Positions 6,868 to 46,909 of a DNA stretch of 50,668 bases are shown here, piece by piece. Position 1 is the first letter of the stretch, and each line of letters starts with the position of its first letter. Under the pieces are notes generated by a model, which saw only the letters and a program-made list of their open reading frames with translations, ran no database searches and was not told the origin of the DNA. The DNA is taken from NCBI GenBank assembly GCA_017615125.1, contig JAGAAS010000048.1, positions 1-50,668 of the forward strand, written 5' to 3'. The position numbers and the translations under genes are program-made. This DNA is from Bacteroidaceae bacterium. GTDB taxonomy: Bacteria; Bacteroidota; Bacteroidia; Bacteroidales; Bacteroidaceae.

Positions 6868-7455
6868 TTATATGGGCATAAATCCGTAAAAAAGCCCTCC
6901 GGCGACGCCGCAGATGACAAGAACGTAGATGGGGTTTATCTTCCATCGGTTGATGGCGAAGAAGGCGAAGAGGAAGACGAGGATGCTGTAGGCGAACGGT
7001 ATGGGCGTCTCCTTCGGGCTGCCGAAGTTCTCCTTGTTCATGAGGATGAGCGCTGCCGAAGCCAGGAGGCCGATGATGAGTGGGCGCAGGATGGAGAACA
7101 CCGCCTTCACCGAGGGGTGCTCGCGGTACTTCATGAGGAACTTGCTGATGATGAACATGAGGATGAACGACGGGAGCAGCTGGCTTCCCGTAGCAAGCAA
7201 TGAGCCCACTACGCCCCACGCGGGGCTGAGGCCCTCGTTGACAACTGCGGTGTAGCCCACGAACGTTGCGGCGTTGATGCCGATAGGTCCCGGCGTCATC
7301 TGGCTGATGGCAATGATGTCGGTGAACTCCGACGACGACATCCACAGGTGCTTGACTACCACTTCGTCCTGGATGAGCGACAGCATGGCGTAGCCCCCTC
7401 CGAAGCCGAAGAGGCCTATCTTGAAGAAGGTAAGGAAGAGCTGCAGGAATATCAT
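6868..7455 (-). CDS. chromate transporter family protein, second half-subunit
   Basis: A 195-residue membrane protein of the CHR (ChrA) family, short single-domain form, which normally works with a partner half. It has the family N-terminal motif FLTFFKIGLFGFGGGYAML and the PGPIGINAATFVGY motif (about 59-72), with about five to six hydrophobic segments. Its ATG overlaps the stop of the upstream half by ATGA (7452-7455), so translation is coupled. Known members export chromate, but for paired short forms in gut and oral anaerobes the natural substrate is not established. The name should be read as family membership only. Confidence 0.88.
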   Translation of the reverse strand: MIFLQLFLTFFKIGLFGFGGGYAMLSLIQDEVVVKHLWMSSSEFTDIIAISQMTPGPIGINAATFVGYTAVVNEGLSPAWGVVGSLLATGSQLLPSFILMFIISKFLMKYREHPSVKAVFSILRPLIIGLLASAALILMNKENFGSPKETPIPFAYSILVFLFAFFAINRWKINPIYVLVICGVAGGLFYGFMPI

Positions 7456-8348
7456 GCGTCACCTCCTTCCTCTTTTTCCTCTACTTCTTTTTCTTTCTTC
7501 TCCTCGCCGTATTCTTTCTTCATCTCGCGAGATTCCTTCTCCAAAATATTAGCTTCTTTGAGCAAAAATACTTTTGCTCTTCCTCTTTCGCGACTCGGCA
7601 AAGTCTGAGCAAGCGCTGCTTTGCTCTCGCTGCTCCCTCGGTTCTTCATCTCGCGAGATTCCTTCTCCAAAATATTTTTTCCCTTCTCGATGTCTTTTTC
7701 TTCTTTGAGCATCTCGCTAGCTTCCCTTTTCTCAACGAAGTATTTGGCGATGCCTCCGGCTATTCCCGCAGCTATCACCCACACGGGAGAAATCCCGAGG
7801 AACGAAATCAGTATCATGGAGAGGATAGGAATCCACACCGTCTTCCACGTGATTCCTGCCGACTTCGAGAGCTTGAAGATGGGGCCCATGATGAGTGCTG
7901 CCACAGCAGGGCGGATGCCTTTGAAGACGTTCTCAACAACTCTGTTGCTTCGGAACTGCTGGAAGAACAAGGCTATAGCAAGAATGATGATGATGCTGGG
8001 GAGCACGGTGCCTGCCGCACAGGCGAAGCTGCCCCTTTTGCCTGCGAGCTTGTAGCCGATGGCGATAGCAAAGTTGGCAGCGAAGACACCTGGTGCCGAT
8101 TGCGAGACAACCATCAAGTCGAGGAACTCCTCCCGCGTGAGCCAACGAAGGCGGTCTACCATATCGCGCTCGATGATGGGTATCATGACAGCCCCTCCGC
8201 CGATGGTGAACAGCCCAATCTTGAAGAACGTAAGAAACGCTTTTCCGCAGGAGAAGGGTACGGGAGCGATAGCTTCGGGGTGCTGGGCGTCGGTTTGCAA
8301 AGCGCGTATGTTTAGGTTAATCCTGTTTCTTGCACCACAGGAAGGCAT
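7452..8348 (-). CDS. chromate transporter family protein, first half-subunit with repeat-derived tail
   Basis: The partner half of the ChrA-type pair. FLTFFKIGLFTIGGGAVMIPIIE (two positions short of the other half's motif) and SAPGVFAANFAIAIGY mark the family, followed by several transmembrane segments to about residue 215. After that the protein is abnormal: about 85 residues rich in Lys, Glu, Arg and Ser, containing EKESREMK twice. They are encoded by a copy of the dispersed repeat (about 7478-7690) and stay in frame to the ATGA overlap with the next gene. The start is uncertain. The ATG at 8348 overlaps the purL end by 32 bp; a TTG at 8300 would avoid this and give a more usual N-terminus. 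The gene lies directly after purL. Confidence 0.85.
   Translation of the reverse strand: MPSCGARNRINLNIRALQTDAQHPEAIAPVPFSCGKAFLTFFKIGLFTIGGGAVMIPIIERDMVDRLRWLTREEFLDLMVVSQSAPGVFAANFAIAIGYKLAGKRGSFACAAGTVLPSIIIILAIALFFQQFRSNRVVENVFKGIRPAVAALIMGPIFKLSKSAGITWKTVWIPILSMILISFLGISPVWVIAAGIAGGIAKYFVEKREASEMLKEEKDIEKGKNILEKESREMKNRGSSESKAALAQTLPSRERGRAKVFLLKEANILEKESREMKKEYGEEKKEKEVEEKEEGGDA
7478..7690. repeat. dispersed palindromic repeat inside a chromate-transporter gene
   Basis: This copy contains the ATCTCGCGAGAT palindrome twice (about 7520-7531 and 7649-7660). Between them lie a hairpin GAGCAAAA-ATAC-TTTTGCTC (7560-7579) and the core module ACTCGG...TCGCTGCTCC-TCGGTTC with stem GAGCAA/TTGCTC (7607-7626). 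It is open in the transporter frame on the minus strand and forms that protein's C-terminal tail. Confidence 0.8.
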
Positions 8349-11300
8349 TGCGGAATGCTTCCATCCAGGGTGTTATCTCGTCGGAGAGTTTTCTGTCGGC
8401 AGGGTAATAGCCGCACTGCCAGGGGAAGATGCAACGCTCGGGATGCGGCATCATGGCCACGTGCCTTCCGTCAGCGCTGGCGATGCCTGCGATGTCGTAA
8501 TCAGAGCCGTTAGGATTAGCGGGATAGCCGTGATAGGCATACTTGGCAACTACGTGATAGCGGCTTTCTTCCTTAGGCAACGCGAAACGTCCCTCCCCGT
8601 GTGCTACCCATACGCCGAGATCGGTGTTTCGTAACGAACCGAACATGACGCTGCTGTTCTCGGGGATGTGCACTCCCAGGAACGAGGACTCGAACTTGTG
8701 GGAGGTATTGTGCTCCATCTTCCCTATCTCGGCTGGTTTGCAGGAACGGTCGAGGAGTCCCATCTCCATCATCAGCTGGCATCCGTTGCAGATGCCGAGG
8801 GAGAGGGTGTCGCTGCGTGAGTAGTAACGGTCGAGCGTCTCCTTCGCTTTCGGGTTATAGAGGAAGGCTCCTGCCCATCCTTTGGCAGAGCCCAGCACGT
8901 CGCTGTTGGAGAATCCTCCGCAGAAGACAATCATGCGTATGTCGTCGAGCGTCTCGCGCCCGCTGATGAGGTCTGTCATCGTGACGTCCTTCACGTCGAA
9001 GCCTGCCAGCCACAGGGAGTAGGCCATCTCCCTCTCGCCGTTGGTGCCCTTCTCGCGGATGATGGCTGCCTTGATGCCCGAGGGCTTCCTCCTCTCGGGA
9101 TGAAGTCCGTATTGTGCGAGCTTGCCGGAGAACGAGGGAGCGAAGTGCATGCGTAGGGGCTGCTTCCCGAGGTTCTCGTGACGGCTTTCGGCGCATCCGT
9201 TAAAGCTCTGCTTTCGGTCGAGCAGGTAGGATGTGTTGAACCAAAGCTCACGCATCTCATCGATGTCGATGCTCTCCTCAAACGTGCCCTTACGGATGCG
9301 GATGGAACGTTCCTTGCAGGGAACGCCGATGTAGACATATCCGATGCCGGCTTCGTCGAGCCACTCCTTGAAGGTGCCTTCGTGTTTGTTTGCCACTTGG
9401 ACGACAACGCCCGGGTTCTCGGCAAACAGGATTTTCACGATGTCGTCGTCGACAAAGTTGTTGAGGTTTATCTTCAGTCCGCCCTTGGTGTTGGCAAAGC
9501 ACATCTCCAGCAGTGTGACGATAAGTCCTCCTGCCGAGATGTCGTGCCCGGCAAGGATAATCCCTTTCGCTACGCACTCCTGCACAATGTTGAAGGCGTC
9601 GCGGAAGTATTCGGGGTTGGTAACCGTAGGCACGTCCGAGCCAACCTTTCCTCTGCTCTGGGCAAAGGCGCTGCCTCCCAGGCGAAGGCTGTCAAAGGAG
9701 AAGTCGATGTGGTAGAGGGCGCTCTTGGGCTCGTCGGCAAGCACGGGGCTCACTACCTTGCGTACGTCGGACACTTCGCCTCCAGCCGAGACGATGACAG
9801 TGCCGGGAGACACCACTTTCTGCCCGTCGGGGTACTTCTGGCTCATCGATAGGGAGTCTTTTCCTGTGGGCACGTTGATGCCTAGGGCGCAGCAGAAGTC
9901 GGAGAGGGCCTTCACGGCAGAGTAAAGGCGTGCATCCTCGCCCTTCTGTGAGCGGCAGGGCCACATCCAGTTGGCGCTGAGGCTTACGCTGTCGAGGCCT
10001 TCCGTGAGAGGAGCCCAGACGATATTTGTCAAACTCTCCGCAACGGAGAGCACCGAGCCGGCAGCAGGGTCTGCCAAGCCTGCCTGGGAGCATGCCCGAG
10101 GGCGGTAGCAATACCGCTCTTTCCTCTATAGTCAAGCGCTACTACGCCGCAGTCGCTAAGCGGCAGCTGCAGCTCTCCCTGACATTGCTGACGGGCTATC
10201 TTGCCTGTTACCGAACGGTCGACCTTATTGGTAAGCCAGTCTTTGCAGGCGACAGCTTCCAGCTGAAGGACGGGAGCAAGGCATTCTGCCAGCGAGGGAG
10301 CGAGGGGAGAGGGGTAGGTGACGTCGTCGTAGCGGCGCTCTACCGTCTCGTCCACCATTACCGTCTTGGGCGAGTGCCCGAACATCTGGCTGACATCCAA
10401 GTCGAAAGGCTTGACGCCGTCGCCCTGCTCGAAGGCGAAGTGTGCATCGCCCGTTGTTTCGCCCACAACGTACATCGGAGCCCTTTCACGCTCGGCAATG
10501 CGGCGTACGTGCTCCAGATGCTCTTCCAGAATGAGGAGCCCCATGCGTTCCTGGCTCTCGTTGGCAATGATTTCCTTTGCCGAGAGGGTAGGGTCGCCGA
10601 TAGGCAGCTTTGTCATATCGATATGTCCTCCGCATTCCTCCACCAGCTCGCTGAGGCAGTTCACATGTCCTGCTGAGCCGTGATCGTGGATGGAAACGAT
10701 GGGGTTCACGTCTTCTTCGCAAAGGGCGCGCACCACGTTGTAGGCACGCTTCTGCATTTCGGCGTTGGCGCGCTGCACGGCATTCAGCTCGATGCCCGAG
10801 GAGTAGCGTCCCGTATCTACCGACGAAACGGAGCCTCCGCCCAGTCCGATGCGGTAGTTGTCGCCTCCCAGCACCACTATTTTCTCTCCCTTCTCGGGAG
10901 TTCCTTTCAGGCAGTCGCGCTTGGTTCCGTAGCCCACGCCTCCTGCCAGCATGATGACTTTGTCGTAGCCGTAGAGCGTATCGTCCTTTTGTTCCTGATG
11001 CTCGAAGGTAAGCACCGAGCCGCAGATGAGAGGCTGCCCGAACTTGTTGCCGAAGTCGCTGGCGCCGTTCGATGCCTTGATGAGAATCTGCTCGGGAGTC
11101 TGATAGAGCCAAGGGCGAGGGGGAATGCCGGTTCCTTCTTTCTCGAGAAGATTTTTTTCTTTCTTCATCTCGCCGTTTTCTTTCTTCATACGGCGAGATT
11201 CCTTCTCCATAATTTTTTCTTCCTCTTCGGCGATTCGCGGGTAGCTTGTCATGTAGACAGCTGTGCCTGCGATGGGCCACGAGCCTTTTCCTCCGCCCAT

Positions 11301-12116
11301 TCTGTCGCGAATCTCGCCTCCCGTTCCCGTGCTTGCGCCGTTGAAGGGTTCTACGGTTGTGGGGAAGTTGTGCGTCTCGGCTTTCAGCGAGATAACGGTG
11401 TGGATATCTTTGATAATGAAGAAGTCGCTGGTGCTGTGGTCGGCAGGCGCAAACTGCTCTACCGTAGGCCCGTCGGCAAAGGCGACGTTGTCCTTGTAGG
11501 CAGAGATGATTTTGTGTGGGTTCTCCCGCGTCGTCTTCTTTATCATGCTGAAGAGCGACGACTCCATCTCCTTGCCGTCGATGATGAACGTGCCTCCGAA
11601 GATCTTGTGGCGACAGTGCTCGGAGTTGATCTGTGCAAAGCCGAACACCTCCGAGTCGGTAAGCTTGCGTCCCAGCTGCTGCTCGACGTTCTTCAGGTAG
11701 CCGATCTCCTCGGGCGAGAGGGCAAGCCCTTCCTGCTCATTGTAGGAGTCAAGGTCTTCGACGAAGATGATGGGCTGCGGCTTGATGTCGACAGTGAAAA
11801 TCTGCTGATTCAGCCCCTTGTACATACGCTGGAGCATGGGGTCGATGTCGGCATCCTCGCTCTCGACGGGGAAGTACTCCTCAATGCGCGTGATGCCCGA
11901 GATGCCCATGTTCTGGGTAATCTCTACGGCGTTGGTGCTCCAGGGGGTTATCATCTCGCGGCGCGGGCCTGCGAAGAAGCCTTCCACCGAAGGCGAGTCG
12001 AGAGATTTGGCATCATCGAAGAGCCAGCAGAGTTTGCCGATGGTGCTCTCATCGGGCTGGTTGGTACACTCGGCAGCTATTATCGACTGGTTTTTAGAAC
12101 GGAAGAACAGTATCAT
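8317..12116 (-). CDS. purL: phosphoribosylformylglycinamidine synthase, frameshifted in this sequence
   Basis: A large single-chain FGAR amidotransferase (step 4 of purine synthesis), about 1,265 residues once the frame is restored. The synthase part shows INSEHCRHKIF, GTGGEIRDRMGGGKGS and SVSLSANWMWPC. The C-terminal glutaminase has the nucleophile in GICNGCQ and the His/Glu pair in PHPER. The gene reads in two overlapping frames: 12116 to 10029, then 10077 to 8317. The switch is at about 10076-10083, where GHAPRQA should continue LADPAAGS but one base (a T in a short T-run) is missing. It is either a sequencing error or a real disabling mutation. A repeat at about 11135-11225 adds roughly 30 in-frame residues (EKESRRMKKE...). 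The start ATG gives the normal N-terminus. Confidence 0.93.
11135..11225. repeat. dispersed palindromic repeat inserted in frame in purL
   Basis: On the plus strand this reads TTTTTTTCTTTCTTCATCTC, then CTTTCTTCATACGGCGAGAT, then TTCCTTCTCC. A 31-base stretch (11176-11206) is identical to 17602-17632 in an intergenic spacer. In purL it encodes a Lys/Glu-rich segment between YPRIAEEE and PWLYQTPEQ. Confidence 0.85.
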
Positions 12117-14880: not shown

Positions 14881-14944
14881 CGGACTTCGCGCCAAAGAAA
14901 CAAGAAAAACGCGTTACAAATTCGTTACAACTCTTCGTCGGGCC

Positions 14945-15115
14945 CTCCTTTTCCTCCCGTCCCGCTTCTTTGCCTTCCGTTTCCTTTTTCGAAGAAATCG
15001 CGTGTTTTGGAGAAACTTTTTGTTTATACCTTCACGAAGGAACACGTTAGCCTTCACGAAGGAGAAGTTAAGACATCACGAAGGAACACGTGTGCCTTCG
15101 TGAAGGTATAAACAA
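14945..15115. repeat. dispersed repeat family 2, copy 1 (with 19-bp inverted ends)
   Basis: About 110 bp (TCCCGCTTCTTTG... to ...CTTTTTGTTTATACC) are nearly identical to 24.99-25.08 kb. It ends in CCTTCACGAAGGAACACG tandem units. GTTTATACCTTCACGAAGG (15022-15040) and its exact reverse complement (about 15094-15112) bound the tandem part, giving a 19-bp perfect inverted repeat. It lies in the divergent spacer between the DUF4153 and pyrophosphatase genes. Confidence 0.85.
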
Positions 15116-15220
15116 CTTGGAGAAGGAAAAACCGTTTCTTGTCTTACGAATGAAAGAGCCGGAGAGCTTTTTCTCGCTCGAAGGAAAACGAAGGGCGAAG
15201 CCTAACTTTTCCATGAAAAG

Positions 15221-17574: not shown

Positions 17575-17660
17575 TTTTATTTTTCTTTCTTCATACGGAT
17601 TTTTTCTTTCTTCATACGGCGAGATTCCTTCTTGAAAAAATTTTTTTCTTTCTTCATAAT
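17575..17660. repeat. dispersed palindromic repeat, short form
   Basis: TTTTTCTTTCTTCATACGG occurs in two tandem copies, the second followed by CGAGATTCCTTCTTG, then TTTTTTTCTTTCTTCATAAT. It lacks the long core module. It shares 31 identical bases with the copy inside purL. Confidence 0.85.
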
Positions 17661-17777
17661 TTTTTCTCGGGCTGTGAAAAAAACACGAGGAGAAAGGAGG
17701 CTTGAAGAGGAGTCGGAAAAGGGCTTGGATTTTTTCAAAAAAGATGGCGCGTGACGAAAGAAAAAAGGAAGAGAATT

Positions 17778-19151: not shown

Positions 19152-20552
19152 ATGAAAAAGATCAGAATTGCCTTAATGACGTTGGCTTTGGCAACCATCA
19201 GCATGAGCGCCTATGCACGCCTCAGTGATTCGGAAATCCGCAGAGAAGCACGCTTCCTGAGTGACCGCATGCGCTACGAGTTAAGACTTAGTCGTGCTCA
19301 GTTCGAGGACGTTTTCGAAATCAACTATGACTACCTCTGGAATGTCAACGAGATTATCGACGACGTAATGTTCGGCTACGACGATGCAGTCGACTACTAC
19401 TACTATCTGCTCGACGTACGTAACGACGACCTCCGCTACGTTCTCCGTCGCAGCCAGTATAGAAGATTCCTCAGAATAGAGTATTTCTATCGTCCTATCT
19501 ATAATGCAGGCAGCTACTGGGCCTTCCGCATCTACAGGTACTACAACAACCGTACGTACTTCTACTACGGAGCACCCTCTATCTTCCATACCTATATGGG
19601 ACTGCACTATCGTACTCACTTCCACTTAGGGTTCTATCGTGACCGCTATCACTTCGCTCACTACAAGAAGCACGACTTCCACTGCTGGAAAGCAGGAGGC
19701 TACGGCAACAACTATGGTGACGGATGGGTAGGCAACGGACACATGGCCAATAAGAATTGGAATAACAAAGCGAACTATGAAAATAGTCGCCGCGACAATA
19801 ACAATGTTGACATCGCTAACAGCTCCATCAGCAGCCGTGCAGGCTCGAGCTCAGCCGCCAGCCGTGCTAACAACACTCGCAGCGCAGCATCGAACTCCGC
19901 AAGCCGCTCTGGAAGCTCCAGCAGCAACGTAAGCTCCAGCCGCTCTGGCAATAGCTCAAGCAATTCCAGCAGCCGCTCCGGCAATACGGATGTTAGCAGC
20001 TCTCGCTCTGGCAATGCCAATACCAACAGCCGCTCTGGCAGCAGCAACGTAAGCTCCTCCAGCCGCTCTGGCAACAGCTCAAGCTCTTCTAGCAGCCGTT
20101 CTGGCAGCAGCAACGTAAGCTCTTCCAGCCGCTCTGGCAATAGCTCCAGCAGCTCCAGCAGCCGTTCTGGCAGCAGCAACGTAAGCTCCTCCAGCCGCTC
20201 TGGCAACAGCTCTAGCTCTTCCAGTAGTCGTTCTGGCAGCAGCAACGTAAGCTCCTCCAGCCGCTCTAGCAATAGCTCCAGCAGCTCCAGCAGCCGTTCT
20301 GGCAGCAGCAACGTAAGCTCTTCCAGTCGCTCTGGCAACAGCTCAAGCAGCTCCAACAATCGCTCAGGTAGCAGCAACGTAAGCTCCTCCAGCCGCTCTG
20401 GCAACAGCTCTAGCTCTTCCAGCAGTCGCTCAGGTAGCAGCAACGTCAGCAGCTCACGCTCATCAGGCTCAAGTTCATCTTCGAGCAGCCGTTCGTCCAG
20501 CTCAAGCTCAAGTTCCTCACGCGGAGGTTCCTCCTCGGGCTCACGTCGGTAA
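19152..20552 (+). CDS. secreted Tyr-rich protein with long Ser/Arg/Gly repeat tail
   Basis: A 466-residue secreted protein of unknown function. Residues 1-22 are a signal peptide ending AYA. Residues 23-170 form a domain rich in Tyr, Arg, Asp and Phe, with predicted helices then aromatic segments (FYRPIYNAGSYWAFRIYRYY). A His/Tyr/Trp/Gly-rich linker follows to about 225. The rest is almost only Ser, Arg, Gly and Asn. Residues 294-425 are six copies of a 22-residue unit (RSGSSNVSSSS + RSGNSSSSSSS) and part of a seventh. The repeat could be a flexible, glycosylated or surface-exposed stalk; this is inference. A full consensus promoter precedes it, and the next gene begins 45 bp on. The repeats should make its length variable between strains. 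Confidence 0.85.
   Translation: MKKIRIALMTLALATISMSAYARLSDSEIRREARFLSDRMRYELRLSRAQFEDVFEINYDYLWNVNEIIDDVMFGYDDAVDYYYYLLDVRNDDLRYVLRRSQYRRFLRIEYFYRPIYNAGSYWAFRIYRYYNNRTYFYYGAPSIFHTYMGLHYRTHFHLGFYRDRYHFAHYKKHDFHCWKAGGYGNNYGDGWVGNGHMANKNWNNKANYENSRRDNNNVDIANSSISSRAGSSSAASRANNTRSAASNSASRSGSSSSNVSSSRSGNSSSNSSSRSGNTDVSSSRSGNANTNSRSGSSNVSSSSRSGNSSSSSSSRSGSSNVSSSSRSGNSSSSSSSRSGSSNVSSSSRSGNSSSSSSSRSGSSNVSSSSRSSNSSSSSSSRSGSSNVSSSSRSGNSSSSSNNRSGSSNVSSSSRSGNSSSSSSSRSGSSNVSSSRSSGSSSSSSSRSSSSSSSSSRGGSSSGSRR
20031..20460 (+). repeat. 66-bp in-frame tandem repeat
   Basis: Six full units of 66 bp and a partial seventh lie inside the Ser-rich gene. Each begins CG(C/T)TC(T/A)GGCAGCAGCAACGT or a close variant. 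Third-position differences between units show that they are not freshly copied, although the sequence is still suited to slippage and recombination. Confidence 0.9.
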
Positions 20553-22763: not shown

Positions 22764-22784
22764 AGAAAGGATATCGGAATATGG

Positions 22785-22950
22785 AAAAGGAATAAAAAAT
22801 CTTCGAGAACCGATGGAGTAGCGAGAGCAACGTAGAGCTTGCTCAGACTTTGCCGAGTCACGACAGAGGAAGAGCAAAAGCAATTTTGCTCAAGGAATCT
22901 CGCGAGATGTAGAAAGAAAAAATCCGTATTCCTTCTCGAAAAATCGGGAT
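22785..22950. repeat. dispersed palindromic repeat, long form (inverted)
   Basis: On the minus strand this copy has ATCTCGCGAGAT and a hairpin GAGCAAAA/TTTTGCTC (22872-22891). Its core module ACTCGG...CTCGCTACTCC-TCGGTTC has stem GAGCAA/TTGCTC (22825-22844). It matches the copy at 7.5 kb closely but lies wholly in the 225-bp spacer before dsbD. Confidence 0.85.
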
Positions 22951-24959: not shown

Positions 24960-24996
24960 AATGCCGGCAGCAAAGAAACTGTCGGCATTCCTTTTT
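24960..24996 (+). terminator. rho-independent terminator after dsbD
   Basis: AATGCCGGCAG pairs with CTGTCGGCATT around an 8-base loop and is followed by CCTTTTT. It starts 30 bp after the dsbD stop. Confidence 0.88.
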
Positions 24997-25160
24997 CTCC
25001 CTTCCCGCTTCTTTGTCTTTCGTTTCCTTTTGCGAAGGAATCGCGTGTTTTGGAGAAACTTTTTGTTTATACCTTCACGAAGGAACACGTTCGCCTTCAC
25101 GAAGGAACACGTTCGCCTTCATGAAGGAACACGTGAACCTTCACGATGGCACAAACAATT
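24996..25160. repeat. dispersed repeat family 2, copy 2 (22-bp tandem units)
   Basis: About 80 bp nearly identical to the copy at 14.95-15.03 kb lead into three 22-bp units starting CCTTCACGAAGG and ending ACACGTTCG or a variant, then a partial fourth (CCTTCACGATGG). Each unit core is a near-palindrome. The closing inverted arm (CACGATGGCACAAAC) is degraded compared with copy 1. It sits between the convergent ends of dsbD and the beta-barrel gene. Confidence 0.85.
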
Positions 25161-25310
25161 TCGCCAAAGAAAAAATCCCGAAAGTCCTGCCAACAAGGCA
25201 AAAAGAAGCAGATTTGGCAATGAGAGCCAAATCCGCACAAAAAAAAGAAAGGAAAACAGGGCTTACTTTATCAGCACTTTTTCGTCGTTGTGGATAAGGT
25301 TTTGCCCCAG

Positions 25311-33930: not shown

Positions 33931-34115
33931 CTCCTCATCTGATTTTGCTAGGAGAAAAAAGATTTTTTCTCTGAACTTTGTTCTTAGAACGTCACGACTC
34001 GGGATAATTCAAGCTGCTTGATTCTCCTTTCGCTGCTCCGTTCTTTCTACATCTCGCCGTATGAAGAAAGAAAAAATATTTTTCCCTTCTCCATATTTGT
34101 AGAAGGGAAAAAGGA
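33931..34115. repeat. dispersed palindromic repeat, long form, locus at 34 kb
   Basis: It starts with the same GATTTTGCTAGGAGAAAAAA block as locus 1, then has ACTCGG, a hairpin TCAAG-CTG-CTTGA (34009-34021), TCGCTGCTCC-GTTC and CATCTCGCCGTATGAAGAAAG. A second hairpin of TTTTTCCCTTCT and AGAAGGGAAAAA arms (34079-34112) ends it. The 34114-34201 stretch that follows is degenerate word repeat up to the next gene. Confidence 0.8.
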
Positions 34116-34201
34116 CCAAAAGGTCATGCTCTGCTGGACAAAGGCGACTCTTAACTCTAGACTTTGAACTATTAACTGCCAACGGACGAACGGCTGCGCT
34201 G

Positions 34202-34693
34202 CTACTCGGTGTAGGTGAAGATGAACCAGTCGGGGGCGTTCCAGGTGAGGTAGCCGAGGGCGCAGATGAGGGCGACGGCGACGAGCAGCCATATCCACCA
34301 GGTCTTGCGCACCCAGGCGACTCGGCTCATCCGCTCGCCCCAGATGAGAGCCAGAACCATCACGGTGGTGTAGATGATGATGTCGAGGATGAGGACGGAG
34401 TGATGGAAGAAGGGCCAGTAGCAGAAGAACAGGGCAATCTGCGCCAGCATGGCGGGGATGGCGACGAGGATAGGGCCTCCGAACGCGCGCACGTCGCGGT
34501 GACGGACGCTGAGGTAGAGGGCAAGGAGCAGCAGGGGGTAGAAGACCATCTTCATGTGCTCCCAGACACATTCGTTCACGGGGAAGATGTTGCCCATCCA
34601 ATGGGTGAACCCGGGCAGGTGGCACACGAAGTGCATGCATGTCCCGATGACTGTCAGCAGGACAATAACAATGATGCGTTCGGTCTTTTTCAT
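34202..34693 (-). CDS. DUF6512-like small membrane protein
   Basis: A 163-residue protein with five hydrophobic helices. The segment FPVNECVWEHMKMVFYPLLL resembles the NEsvWEHlK motif of DUF6512 proteins, whose function is unknown. The frame opens at 34762, but the ATG at 34693 (MKKTERIIVIVLL) gives a sensible first membrane helix and lies 34 bp after a TATCTTTG box on the minus strand (34727-34734). It is separated from the rhamnosidase by the repeat locus. Confidence 0.78.
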   Translation of the reverse strand: MKKTERIIVIVLLTVIGTCMHFVCHLPGFTHWMGNIFPVNECVWEHMKMVFYPLLLLALYLSVRHRDVRAFGGPILVAIPAMLAQIALFFCYWPFFHHSVLILDIIIYTTVMVLALIWGERMSRVAWVRKTWWIWLLVAVALICALGYLTWNAPDWFIFTYTE

Positions 34694-44555: not shown

Positions 44556-44640
44556 CTGATTTTTTCTTTCTTCAAAAAAGTTTTTTCTTTCTTCATACGG
44601 CGAGATTCTTTCTTCATAATTTTTTATTCCTTCTCGAAAA
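44556..44640. repeat. dispersed palindromic repeat, short form, abutting a start codon
   Basis: GATTTTTTCTTTCTTC, then TTTTTTCTTTCTTCATACGG, CGAGATTCTTTCTTCATAAT, then TTTTTTATTCCTTCTCGAAA. The last bases touch the thioesterase ATG at 44641, so the repeat supplies the whole upstream sequence of that gene. Confidence 0.85.
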
Positions 44641-45051
44641 ATGAAAACGATGAAACCATACATCCACAGAGTTAACTACTACGAAACAGACCGCATGCAA
44701 GTGACGCACCATTCGAACTATATCCGCTTCATGGAAGAGGCGCGCATCGACTTCATGGAGCGTGCCGGTATGGGTTACGAGAAAATGGAGGCCGAGGGTG
44801 TCGTCTCGCCCGTGATGGCTGTCACATGTGACTTCCGCAAGCCTACCACCTTCCCCGACGAGATAGAGATAGAGGTGCGCGCAGCCGAACTGTCGCGGCT
44901 GAAGCTGCGGATGGCCTACACCATGAGGGTAGGGGGCGAGCTGGTGTGCACCGCTACCAGCCTTCATTGCTTTCTCCGCAACGGGCGTCCGATAAGCCTT
45001 GAGGAGGAGTTTCCCGAATTCTACCAACTCCTGAAGGAATCGATGGAGTGA
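44641..45051 (+). CDS. acyl-CoA thioesterase, 4HBT/YbgC-like
   Basis: A 136-residue hotdog-fold thioesterase. RVNYYETDRMQVTHHSNYIRFMEEARI has the YbgC-type Asp in the YETD motif (near 17) and the HHSNY catalytic region. The substrate chain length is unknown. An in-frame ATG at 44650 is an alternative start that would leave a slightly longer leader. The gene begins directly at the edge of a dispersed repeat, and no -7 box is seen, so its expression must come from the repeat or from read-through. Confidence 0.88.
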   Translation: MKTMKPYIHRVNYYETDRMQVTHHSNYIRFMEEARIDFMERAGMGYEKMEAEGVVSPVMAVTCDFRKPTTFPDEIEIEVRAAELSRLKLRMAYTMRVGGELVCTATSLHCFLRNGRPISLEEEFPEFYQLLKESME

Positions 45052-45076
45052 GTGAAGAAAAAAATGCAGCATTTGC

Positions 45077-45107
45077 TTTGAGACAGAAGGGATAAGAAGT
45101 AATTTTG
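45077..45107 (+). promoter_or_regulatory. consensus promoter of the carboxylesterase lipoprotein gene
   Basis: TTTG (45077-45080), exactly 19 bp, TAATTTTG (45100-45107), 31 bp before the ATG at 45139. Confidence 0.85.
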
Positions 45108-45138
45108 CCCGAAATTCGCTGAAACAATCGTGACGAAG

Positions 45139-46800
45139 ATGAAAATGAAGAAGTACGTTTGGATAGTGCTCACCGTGTTGGCGATAGCTGTCGCTTTCGT
45201 TTCGTGCAAGTCGTGCAAGTCGGCAAAGCGCAACAAGCCCGTTGTCCCCGAAGTGGTAACCCCTGCGGAGAAGGAGAGCGAGAAGGAGATTATGGAGGAG
45301 TTGTCGTGGCTCCTGATACAGCCGGGACGTTACTACAGCGTAGCGCTTGACGGCAGGAGAGGATATGTGATGATTGACAAGTCGGAGCATACTCACATCG
45401 CTGGGCATTTCTATGAAGATACCGGGGAGGCGTGGGCAGAGCCGCGCTCCTTTACTGCCGAGCTGAAGAAACGCTTTGTGAACGTCACGACAGGCGACGA
45501 GACACGCAAGATTCCCACCAAGGACCTGAAGCGAAGCCTCTCCATCGAGCCCTATGAGGCTCCCGCGTACGAGGCTGTTGACGACCCGCGCTACAGGAAG
45601 CCTACATACGAGGTGAAGGTCACGCAGGACGTCAAGTACGGCACCGCCGACGGCTACTGGACAAACATCTCCGGATTCGAGGATAAGAGCTACACGCGGG
45701 TGGTGCTGGAGGGCTTCCGCAAGAGCATCTCGAAGCGCGAGCTCGACTTGCTGCTCGACCTCTATCAGCCTATCGGCGCGCCTGAGGGGAAGAAGCCGCT
45801 CATCATGTTCATTCACGGAGGCGCGTTCTATGTGGGCGATAGGCAGAGCGCGCCTATGGTAGGCTGGTGCCGCTACTTCACCTCGCTGGGATACGTCTGT
45901 GCCAGCATCGATTACCGCATCGGGTTCCTCCCCTCCAAGGACGACATCGAGCGGGCAGGATATATGGCGTTGCAGGATGCACACGCCGCTATGCGTTTCC
46001 TCGTCTCCAAAGCCGACGAGTACGACATCGATACCGACGAGATCTATGTGGCAGGCACCAGCGCAGGCAGCATCACGGCGCTGAATCTCGCCTTCATGCG
46101 CAACGACAGCCGCCCGCAGTCGTCCTACGGCAAGAAGGCAGGACTCATCAAGACGGAGCGCAGCACCGACCTGGGAAACATAGAGACTTCGGGCAACGAG
46201 TTGCGCAACAAGTTCACCATCCGCGCTGTGGCAAACATGTGGGGGGCGGTGAACAACGTCGATATTCTGAAGAACAGCGACACCGACATCATCTCCTTCC
46301 ACGGAGATGCCGACCAGCTTGTGCCCTACGATCACGGCTACCCCTTCGAGGACATCAAGAACAACCTGGGCGAGAAGCTCTTCAACGAGATGTACGGCTC
46401 GGTGCAGATAGACAAAAAGGCACGTCAGCTGGGGCTCCGCAGCAAGTTCTACGGCTTTCACGGCGAGCCGCACGCCTTCCACGTGAACAAGGACCAGTCG
46501 GTCAACAACTACTATTATCTCATCAGGGATTCCATCAGCTCGTTCTTCTATCAGGAGATGGTGCCTCACGAGGCAACCATCGTGCCCGACAAGCGCGACG
46601 ATCAGCGCTTCGTCATTGCCGACACGGATGTGGATCATGTTTCGTGGCGGGCGGAAGGTGGATTCATCATTGAAACGGGGCGTAACGTGGCTCGCGTGCT
46701 CTGGCGTACCGATGAGACGAATCATCGCCTGTTTGCTTCGGGCACCTATCGCAACGGCTTGGGCTACAAGACGAGCAGGGAGGTGATGAAGCCGTACTAG
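45139..46800 (+). CDS. carboxylesterase/lipase-like lipoprotein
   Basis: A 553-residue lipoprotein, an alpha/beta hydrolase of the carboxylesterase type B or acetyl-esterase group. The lipobox AFVSC puts the acylated Cys near 23 (signal MKMKKYVWIVLTVLAIAVAFVSC). After a roughly 150-residue N-terminal part the catalytic domain shows the oxyanion motif HGGAF (near 226), nucleophile Ser in GTSAGS (near 308), an Asp in HGDADQLVPYDHG (near 388) and a His in HGEPHAFH (near 445). A C-terminal extension follows. The GTG at 45130 is not used here because the ATG at 45139 gives the normal lipoprotein signal; 45145 is also possible. Its substrate is unknown. Confidence 0.88.
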   Translation: MKMKKYVWIVLTVLAIAVAFVSCKSCKSAKRNKPVVPEVVTPAEKESEKEIMEELSWLLIQPGRYYSVALDGRRGYVMIDKSEHTHIAGHFYEDTGEAWAEPRSFTAELKKRFVNVTTGDETRKIPTKDLKRSLSIEPYEAPAYEAVDDPRYRKPTYEVKVTQDVKYGTADGYWTNISGFEDKSYTRVVLEGFRKSISKRELDLLLDLYQPIGAPEGKKPLIMFIHGGAFYVGDRQSAPMVGWCRYFTSLGYVCASIDYRIGFLPSKDDIERAGYMALQDAHAAMRFLVSKADEYDIDTDEIYVAGTSAGSITALNLAFMRNDSRPQSSYGKKAGLIKTERSTDLGNIETSGNELRNKFTIRAVANMWGAVNNVDILKNSDTDIISFHGDADQLVPYDHGYPFEDIKNNLGEKLFNEMYGSVQIDKKARQLGLRSKFYGFHGEPHAFHVNKDQSVNNYYYLIRDSISSFFYQEMVPHEATIVPDKRDDQRFVIADTDVDHVSWRAEGGFIIETGRNVARVLWRTDETNHRLFASGTYRNGLGYKTSREVMKPY

Positions 46801-46909
46801 CTTCACGCAGCAAGGACATCAGAGAGCTTATGTGAGTGCTTATCCGTTTTGTTAGCTATATAAGGAAGATTCGTTTTTAGGAACAGTTCAATCATAAATA
46901 TAAACTAGA

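Follow-up and report, generated by a model that had tools for sequence, protein, structure and literature searches.

The question raised by this locus is how a core purine enzyme came to carry, within its coding sequence, a Lys/Glu-rich peptide whose DNA recurs elsewhere in the same genome. The window (the whole stretch of DNA analysed, 50,668 nt, from the Bacteroidaceae genome here called G000) contains the insert on the minus strand of purL at about 11127-11222, where translation and a comparison of same-genus loops delimit an in-frame repeat array encoding EEKIMEKESRRMKKENGEMKKEKNLLEKEGTG. The entire loop between the YMT and WLYQTP motifs, which starts after AGTAVYMT, comprises 45 residues (SYPRIAEEEEKIMEKESRRMKKENGEMKKEKNLLEKEGTGIPPRP). 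In an alignment with a solved PurL chain, the insert lies within an unaligned stretch, with matched blocks ending and starting at query residues 299 and 340, and its site is the length-variable loop after SYPR. A sequence-only reading of the window had proposed that a dispersed, Lys/Glu-rich repeat sits in this loop of purL, keeping the frame and free of stops. Our analyses bear this out, and the loop does vary in length among relatives.

To describe this variation, the best 80 of 593 PurL relatives were kept, 79 of which had a readable loop. A length of 19 residues was the commonest (40 of 79); the loop had at most 24 residues in 55 relatives and at least 26 in the other 24. Within the genus, 13 other genomes were readable, including the sister genome G015, and five further ones were unreadable. 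All 12 readable genomes besides G015 have a loop of 16-19 residues; the sequence-only reading had put the lengths, between YPRIAEEE and PWLYQTPEQ, at about 40 residues against about 15. The loop of G015, in turn, has 38 residues and contains a degenerate copy, MEKKSCGMKKEDGAAKKE, the only trace of the segment in the same-genus genomes read. The PurL insert is therefore not brand new, and together with the short loops of the 12 other genomes this degenerate copy indicates that it arrived before the split of G000 and G015, or twice. Short Lys/Glu-rich loops resembling SYPRNKEEQEEIPARP are present in four same-genus genomes, and given these, an insertion is not easily distinguished from a local expansion combined with conversion.

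By ORF and sister comparison, purL occupies 8317-12116 on the minus strand as two ORFs (10029-12116 and 8317-10077). Its frame changes once, at about 10083-10086, where the gene of G015 is continuous (1259 aa). Of the roughly eight clear orthologues that were compared across the syntenic region of G000 and G015, only purL shows such a break, which is either real or an assembly error, the assemblies being drafts (G000 is 87% complete). The enzyme, which had been described as intact on both sides of the insert, is intact beside it and interrupted about 1 kb downstream, so that expression of the full decorated PurL in G000 is uncertain.

The link between purL and the rest of the genome is a 31-base block, TTTTCTTTCTTCATACGGCGAGATTCCTTCT, which is exactly identical in the purL copy (11176-11206) and in an intergenic copy (17602-17632), as had been claimed for a repeat at 17.6 kb. 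With up to 3 mismatches, a 20-base core had six matches in the window and none in 100 dinucleotide shuffles. Genome-wide, the 26-base core TTTTCTTTCTTCATACGGCGAGATTC, also at up to 3 mismatches, occurred at 194 places in G000 (reversed pattern, 0) and had 26 matches in the sister G015 and none in 17 other same-genus genomes. A 24-base core at up to 2 mismatches was found in only two of 399 genomes of the family, G000 (180) and G015 (16). The match between purL and the dispersed copies thus holds and is strong, and on this identity the insert is assigned as one copy of a dispersed repeat family of G000. No Rfam family matched the window at gathering scores, and a known RNA family was rejected as the identity of the repeat. 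Carriage by phages was also rejected, as viral contigs contained no exact 21-base match to the repeat, and a plasmid-record search with purL, which yielded only five distant records, was set aside. Among the matches listed in a text search, no title or abstract dealt with this family or with in-frame dispersed repeats in Bacteroidota.

The anatomy of the family was surveyed in 1,064,270 bases of G000 (35%), on contigs picked among those with core matches, so that the density is not a random estimate; contig C33 joined the survey after a Lys/Glu peptide search. An array was defined as at least two 11-nt modules whose spacing fits a 21-nt lattice. By this rule there were 109 arrays in the sample and none in the reversed sequence, and of the 448 pairs of modules lying no more than 130 nt apart, 433 fell on the lattice. 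The unit, or brick, measures 21 nt and consists of an oriented, purine-rich 11-nt module (TGAAGAAAGAA, TCGAGAAGGAA and variants) and a 10-nt linker; in many bricks the linker is palindromic or combines the halves of two palindromes. The purL array has four strict modules on this lattice (11136-11209). When module matching was relaxed to allow up to 2 mismatches, 485 units were counted in the 109 elements, with 2 to 7 in each and 4 the commonest number, and in 68 of the elements modules of mixed orientation occurred with the lattice still kept. In the first 77 arrays, TCTCGCCGTA was among the commonest linkers, together with A/T runs (AAAAATTTTT, for example) and TCTCGCGAGA, a perfect palindrome, and the mean palindromy of 267 linkers was 0.54 versus 0.37 for shuffled ones. 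Compared with dinucleotide shuffles, the arrays folded only slightly better (median z -1.0; z below -2 in 37% of 106) and formed nothing beyond short stems.

The ends of the elements are fuzzy, and the comparison of their flanks with shuffled pairs is to be read with this in mind. Direct repeats of at least 5 bases flanked 54 of 108 elements (49.7 in shuffled pairs), those of exactly 5 bases being slightly commoner (40 of 108 versus 30.6), and for inverted repeats of at least 5 bases the figure was 50 of 108 (48.6 in shuffled pairs). Terminal repeats were consequently discarded as a feature of the family, not being clearly above shuffled pairs in these 108 elements, and target duplication is at most a possible feature, as the direct repeats do not clearly exceed shuffled pairs either. 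Movement driven by RAYT was rejected as well: Y1_Tnp (PF01797), the sole transposase family searched, had no match in the 87%-complete assembly of G000, and the control had matches in 5 of 14 genomes.

Besides purL, arrays are spread over the window. The intergenic copy named by the sequence-only reading spans 17578-17662 on the minus strand, and another intergenic array, at 196-277, has modules in both orientations. The repeat and module search also placed arrays at the end of an ORF without a Pfam hit (array 34041-34101; ORF 34047-34640) and, on the minus strand, over the end of the ORF at 44614-46806 (array 44560-44642). A chromate transporter on the minus strand (ORF 7452-8348) ends in a C-terminal tail formed by in-frame arrays (7452-7711), which are missing in the sister G015. 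A composite intergenic copy at 22784-22937, outside the strict array rule, has the same longer block as this tail, inverted; the two versions of the block (7551-7645 and 22806-22900) measure 95 nt, are 88% alike and lie between bricks. In the tail, the block is flanked by modules at 7533 and 7659, a distance of 126 nt or six bricks. Repeats of other kinds were also observed in the window: a 33/66-nt tandem repeat (19919-20522) within the ORF at 19152-20552 (466 aa, against 385 aa in the sister), and a further repeat, roughly 190 nt long and with inverted arms, the two copies of which (14941-15131 and 24984-25174) share 84% identity.

Most of the arrays surveyed are intergenic: 86 of 109 lay outside ORFs of at least 140 aa, although such ORFs make up 89% of the sample. 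The remaining 23 overlap ORFs, several of them at gene ends or on doubtful ORFs, and several of these overlaps are probably spurious ORFs lying over intergenic arrays, two long ones having no Pfam hit. The first 36 arrays comprised 18 between tandem, 6 between divergent and 5 between convergent genes, 6 within ORFs and 1 at an edge. Compared with 161 tandem, 31 divergent and 30 convergent gene pairs, this reveals no bias, and orientation-specific placement was rejected.

The search for the repeat within other genes was nevertheless positive, and in G000 the clear in-frame cases are purL, a polysaccharide deacetylase, a fused oxidoreductase and the tail of the chromate transporter. The deacetylase (PF01522) is a net 147 nt longer in G000 than in G015; about 100 of these nucleotides are recognisable bricks and the remainder is merely Lys/Glu-rich. 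This segment is absent from all 13 aligned relatives (13 of 18 other genomes had a match). In the fused oxidoreductase, which has DHODB iron-sulfur, Fer4_20 and Pyr_redox_2 domains and which we take to resemble glutamate-synthase small subunits, the array lies in an interdomain linker. A linker stretch of 108 aa in G000 and of 110 aa in G015 compares with 77-89 aa in all 11 other same-genus relatives read, from which the repeat family is absent. The linker of G015 also contains modules of this family, but they run the other way and read as NIPSPEKIIPSSSREICSPKNDICSPKS, so this linker has either received the element on two occasions or seen it inverted in situ, and the 21-nt lattice explains why the frame was kept under either course. 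The oxidoreductase linkers of three further loci (L335, L338 and L339), such as DNSQLTNDNSEFKIQNSELTP, look like another in-frame repeat, which we regard as a candidate. An amidase linker is less surely an in-frame copy: it contains a brick-like segment in G000 and a different Lys/Glu-rich stretch in G015, and it is variable in all 13 relatives aligned.

Judging from the ORFs alone, copies at N-termini seem to supply a signal-peptide start together with a charged region. Candidates with a start codon and charged region are L208:2096-2200 and L210:2086-2190, and further N-terminal copies were noted in a GDSL-lipase ORF (contig C91) and a SusD ORF (contig C40). With respect to reading frame, the Lys/Glu frame was stop-free in 38 of the first 77 arrays, and the five other frames were open in 13 to 69. 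The purL, chromate transporter and oxidoreductase copies of G000 all read the Lys/Glu frame, and the oxidoreductase copy of G015 reads an antisense frame. A frame bias toward Lys/Glu was rejected, since three genes make too small a sample and the copy in G015 is antisense; this count leaves out the amidase and deacetylase copies and several at termini, because a Lys/Glu peptide search had led to them.

The PurL loop also houses unrelated dispersed repeats in other Bacteroidales, clearly in three genomes and weakly in one. In genome G043 (locus L098), the loop contains AATTCAC-type heptamers that occur at 105 places in the genome, overlapping places within tandem runs being counted separately. 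The loops of L085 (genome G041) and L076 (genome G042) have a common central block with different flanking repeats; at up to 2 mismatches, the block occurs at 24 places in G041 and 9 in G042, with none in the control. The loop pattern of L064 (genome G044) is weak, with 31 places against 16 for its reversed control. None of the loop patterns of L098, L085/L076 and L064 occurs in G000. Of the 24 loops of at least 26 aa, 22 were checked for copies near their own gene, and matches were obtained in three (L076, L085 and L098), those of L098 being a second place in the same purL; the other 19 had no copies within their own locus. The genome-wide repeat count covers only a minority of the long loops. 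Nine 38-aa loops of the NGVAP type were rejected as repeats, since they represent one conserved type, give no repeat evidence and look like one old insert. As separate observations, one heptamer repeat is present twice in frame in two different loops of the same PurL (L098:8001-10040), and the PurL of L076 (8001-10127) has three extra segments in three different loops, the centre of the middle one being common to the L085 repeat.

Direct observations are the dispersion of the repeat, its lattice, its intergenic bias, the inserts that keep the frame and the lack of these in relatives. The best explanation as a whole, which we consider likely, is a lineage-restricted, high-copy and apparently non-coding family that was amplified in the lineage of G000 and G015 and whose copies in genes are tolerated. 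Such a selfish or neutral repeat would reside between genes, and genic copies would persist only if they are in frame, stop-free and situated in a variable loop, a domain linker or a terminus; the PurL peptide would then be tolerated rather than useful. Slippage at the palindromic linkers, or a switch of template there, may let the arrays grow, flip and spread with no classical transposase. This route is suggested because flips stay on the lattice, and classical transposition is unsupported because no terminal repeat, clear target duplication or Y1 transposase (the only family searched) was found. A more specific version, which we offer tentatively and hold to be possible rather than probable, is that the repeat is selfish and frame-safe: since 21 nt equal seven codons and two helical turns and the linkers are near-palindromic, bricks could be gained, removed or inverted with the frame preserved. 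The repeat would thereby serve as a portable linker, one that repeatedly inserts into the same permissive loops in core enzymes, beside the unrelated families that use the PurL loop elsewhere.

Alternatively, the brick array may be the body of a MITE, a non-autonomous element mobilized by a transposase in trans. The high copy number, the palindromic parts, the mostly intergenic position and the element-free sites in G015 would suit a MITE, but its length would not be expected to range from 2 to 7 units without common terminal inverted repeats, and neither clear target duplications (108 elements, with fuzzy ends) nor a match to Y1_Tnp, the one transposase family searched, were obtained; we regard it as rather unlikely. 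A similarly low probability is given to a candidate phased protein-binding site, nucleoid or regulatory, the lattice of which would be kept by selection on DNA binding and the genic copies of which would be accidents. The 21-bp period of two helical turns, kept in phase whatever the brick orientation, and the A/T-tract linkers are consistent with protein binding, whereas the first 36 arrays had no gene-orientation bias and the core is absent from 397 of 399 genomes of the family, which would be odd for the site of a core regulator. Finally, the PurL loop might be a locally expanded low-complexity segment selected for protein function, with its likeness to the intergenic repeats due to chance or conversion. 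The four same-genus genomes with short Lys/Glu-rich loops fit local expansion, as does the fact that the clear internal copies in G000 are all in the same Lys/Glu frame. Against it stand the 31-base identity to an intergenic copy, the lattice, the same DNA in unrelated genes and the quite different repeats in the same loop of other genomes, and we find it very improbable. We retain the tolerated, lineage-restricted repeat as the preferred reading.

The palindromic elements known from Rickettsia (RPEs), to which the sequence-only reading had likened the insert, are each one long palindrome that folds as a stable hairpin. They are described as short dispersed palindromic repeats lying in frame in unrelated, likely still functional genes (PMC10969869, PMC3733652), about 150 bp long, with nearly half of the first-reported ones within ORFs (PMC10969869). 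The G000 repeat works like them in that it lies in frame at tolerated sites of purL, the deacetylase, the oxidoreductase and the chromate transporter tail (more weakly in the amidase). This part of the parallel stands, but the repeat lacks two defining features of RPEs: its arrays are mostly outside ORFs (86 of 109) instead of nearly half within them, and its 21-nt brick forms short stems (median z -1.0) and no long hairpin. Its host, moreover, belongs to Bacteroidales, and the comparison with RPEs rests on their descriptions.

Within Bacteroidales, the available descriptions point to partial counterparts. The BrickBuilt MITE of Porphyromonas gingivalis (PMC4596501) is likewise a dispersed tandem minisatellite at many places in one species; however, it is reported to have a 23-nt unit, inverted leader and tail ends, 19 copies in one strain and an always intergenic position, whereas the G000 repeat has a 21-nt lattice and in-gene copies. 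PINSR of the Prevotella intermedia group, a 188-bp intergenic repeat with 177 and 184 copies in two strains, is also lineage-specific and lacks terminal inverted repeats, but the description consulted includes no 21-nt lattice or in-frame copies (PMC4755523). Among more widespread systems, the GTAG/CGTC REPs are short, palindromic and mostly intergenic, with some inside ORFs in several species, and CGTC repeats occur in Bacteroidetes too (PMC3733652); compared with REPs as described there, the G000 repeat has another unit, and its genome has no Y1_Tnp match. PARCEL similarly consists of palindromic DNA encoding amphipathic repeats, but its 25-residue motif is reported to form tandem arrays in ORFs that have no assigned function (PMC2996958), unlike the short inserts in core enzymes of G000.

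According to the accounts consulted, repeats in ORFs were already known; the emphasis there is on Rickettsia, but several other species are also named in which REPs and MITEs lie in genes. What is new here is the repeat family, with copies in core enzymes of a Bacteroidales genome and with relatives that display the state without the insert. The presence of different dispersed repeats in one PurL loop across genomes constitutes a natural experiment on how protein loops are gained, and the 21-nt lattice, preserved through flips, is a concrete and testable clue to how such repeats grow.
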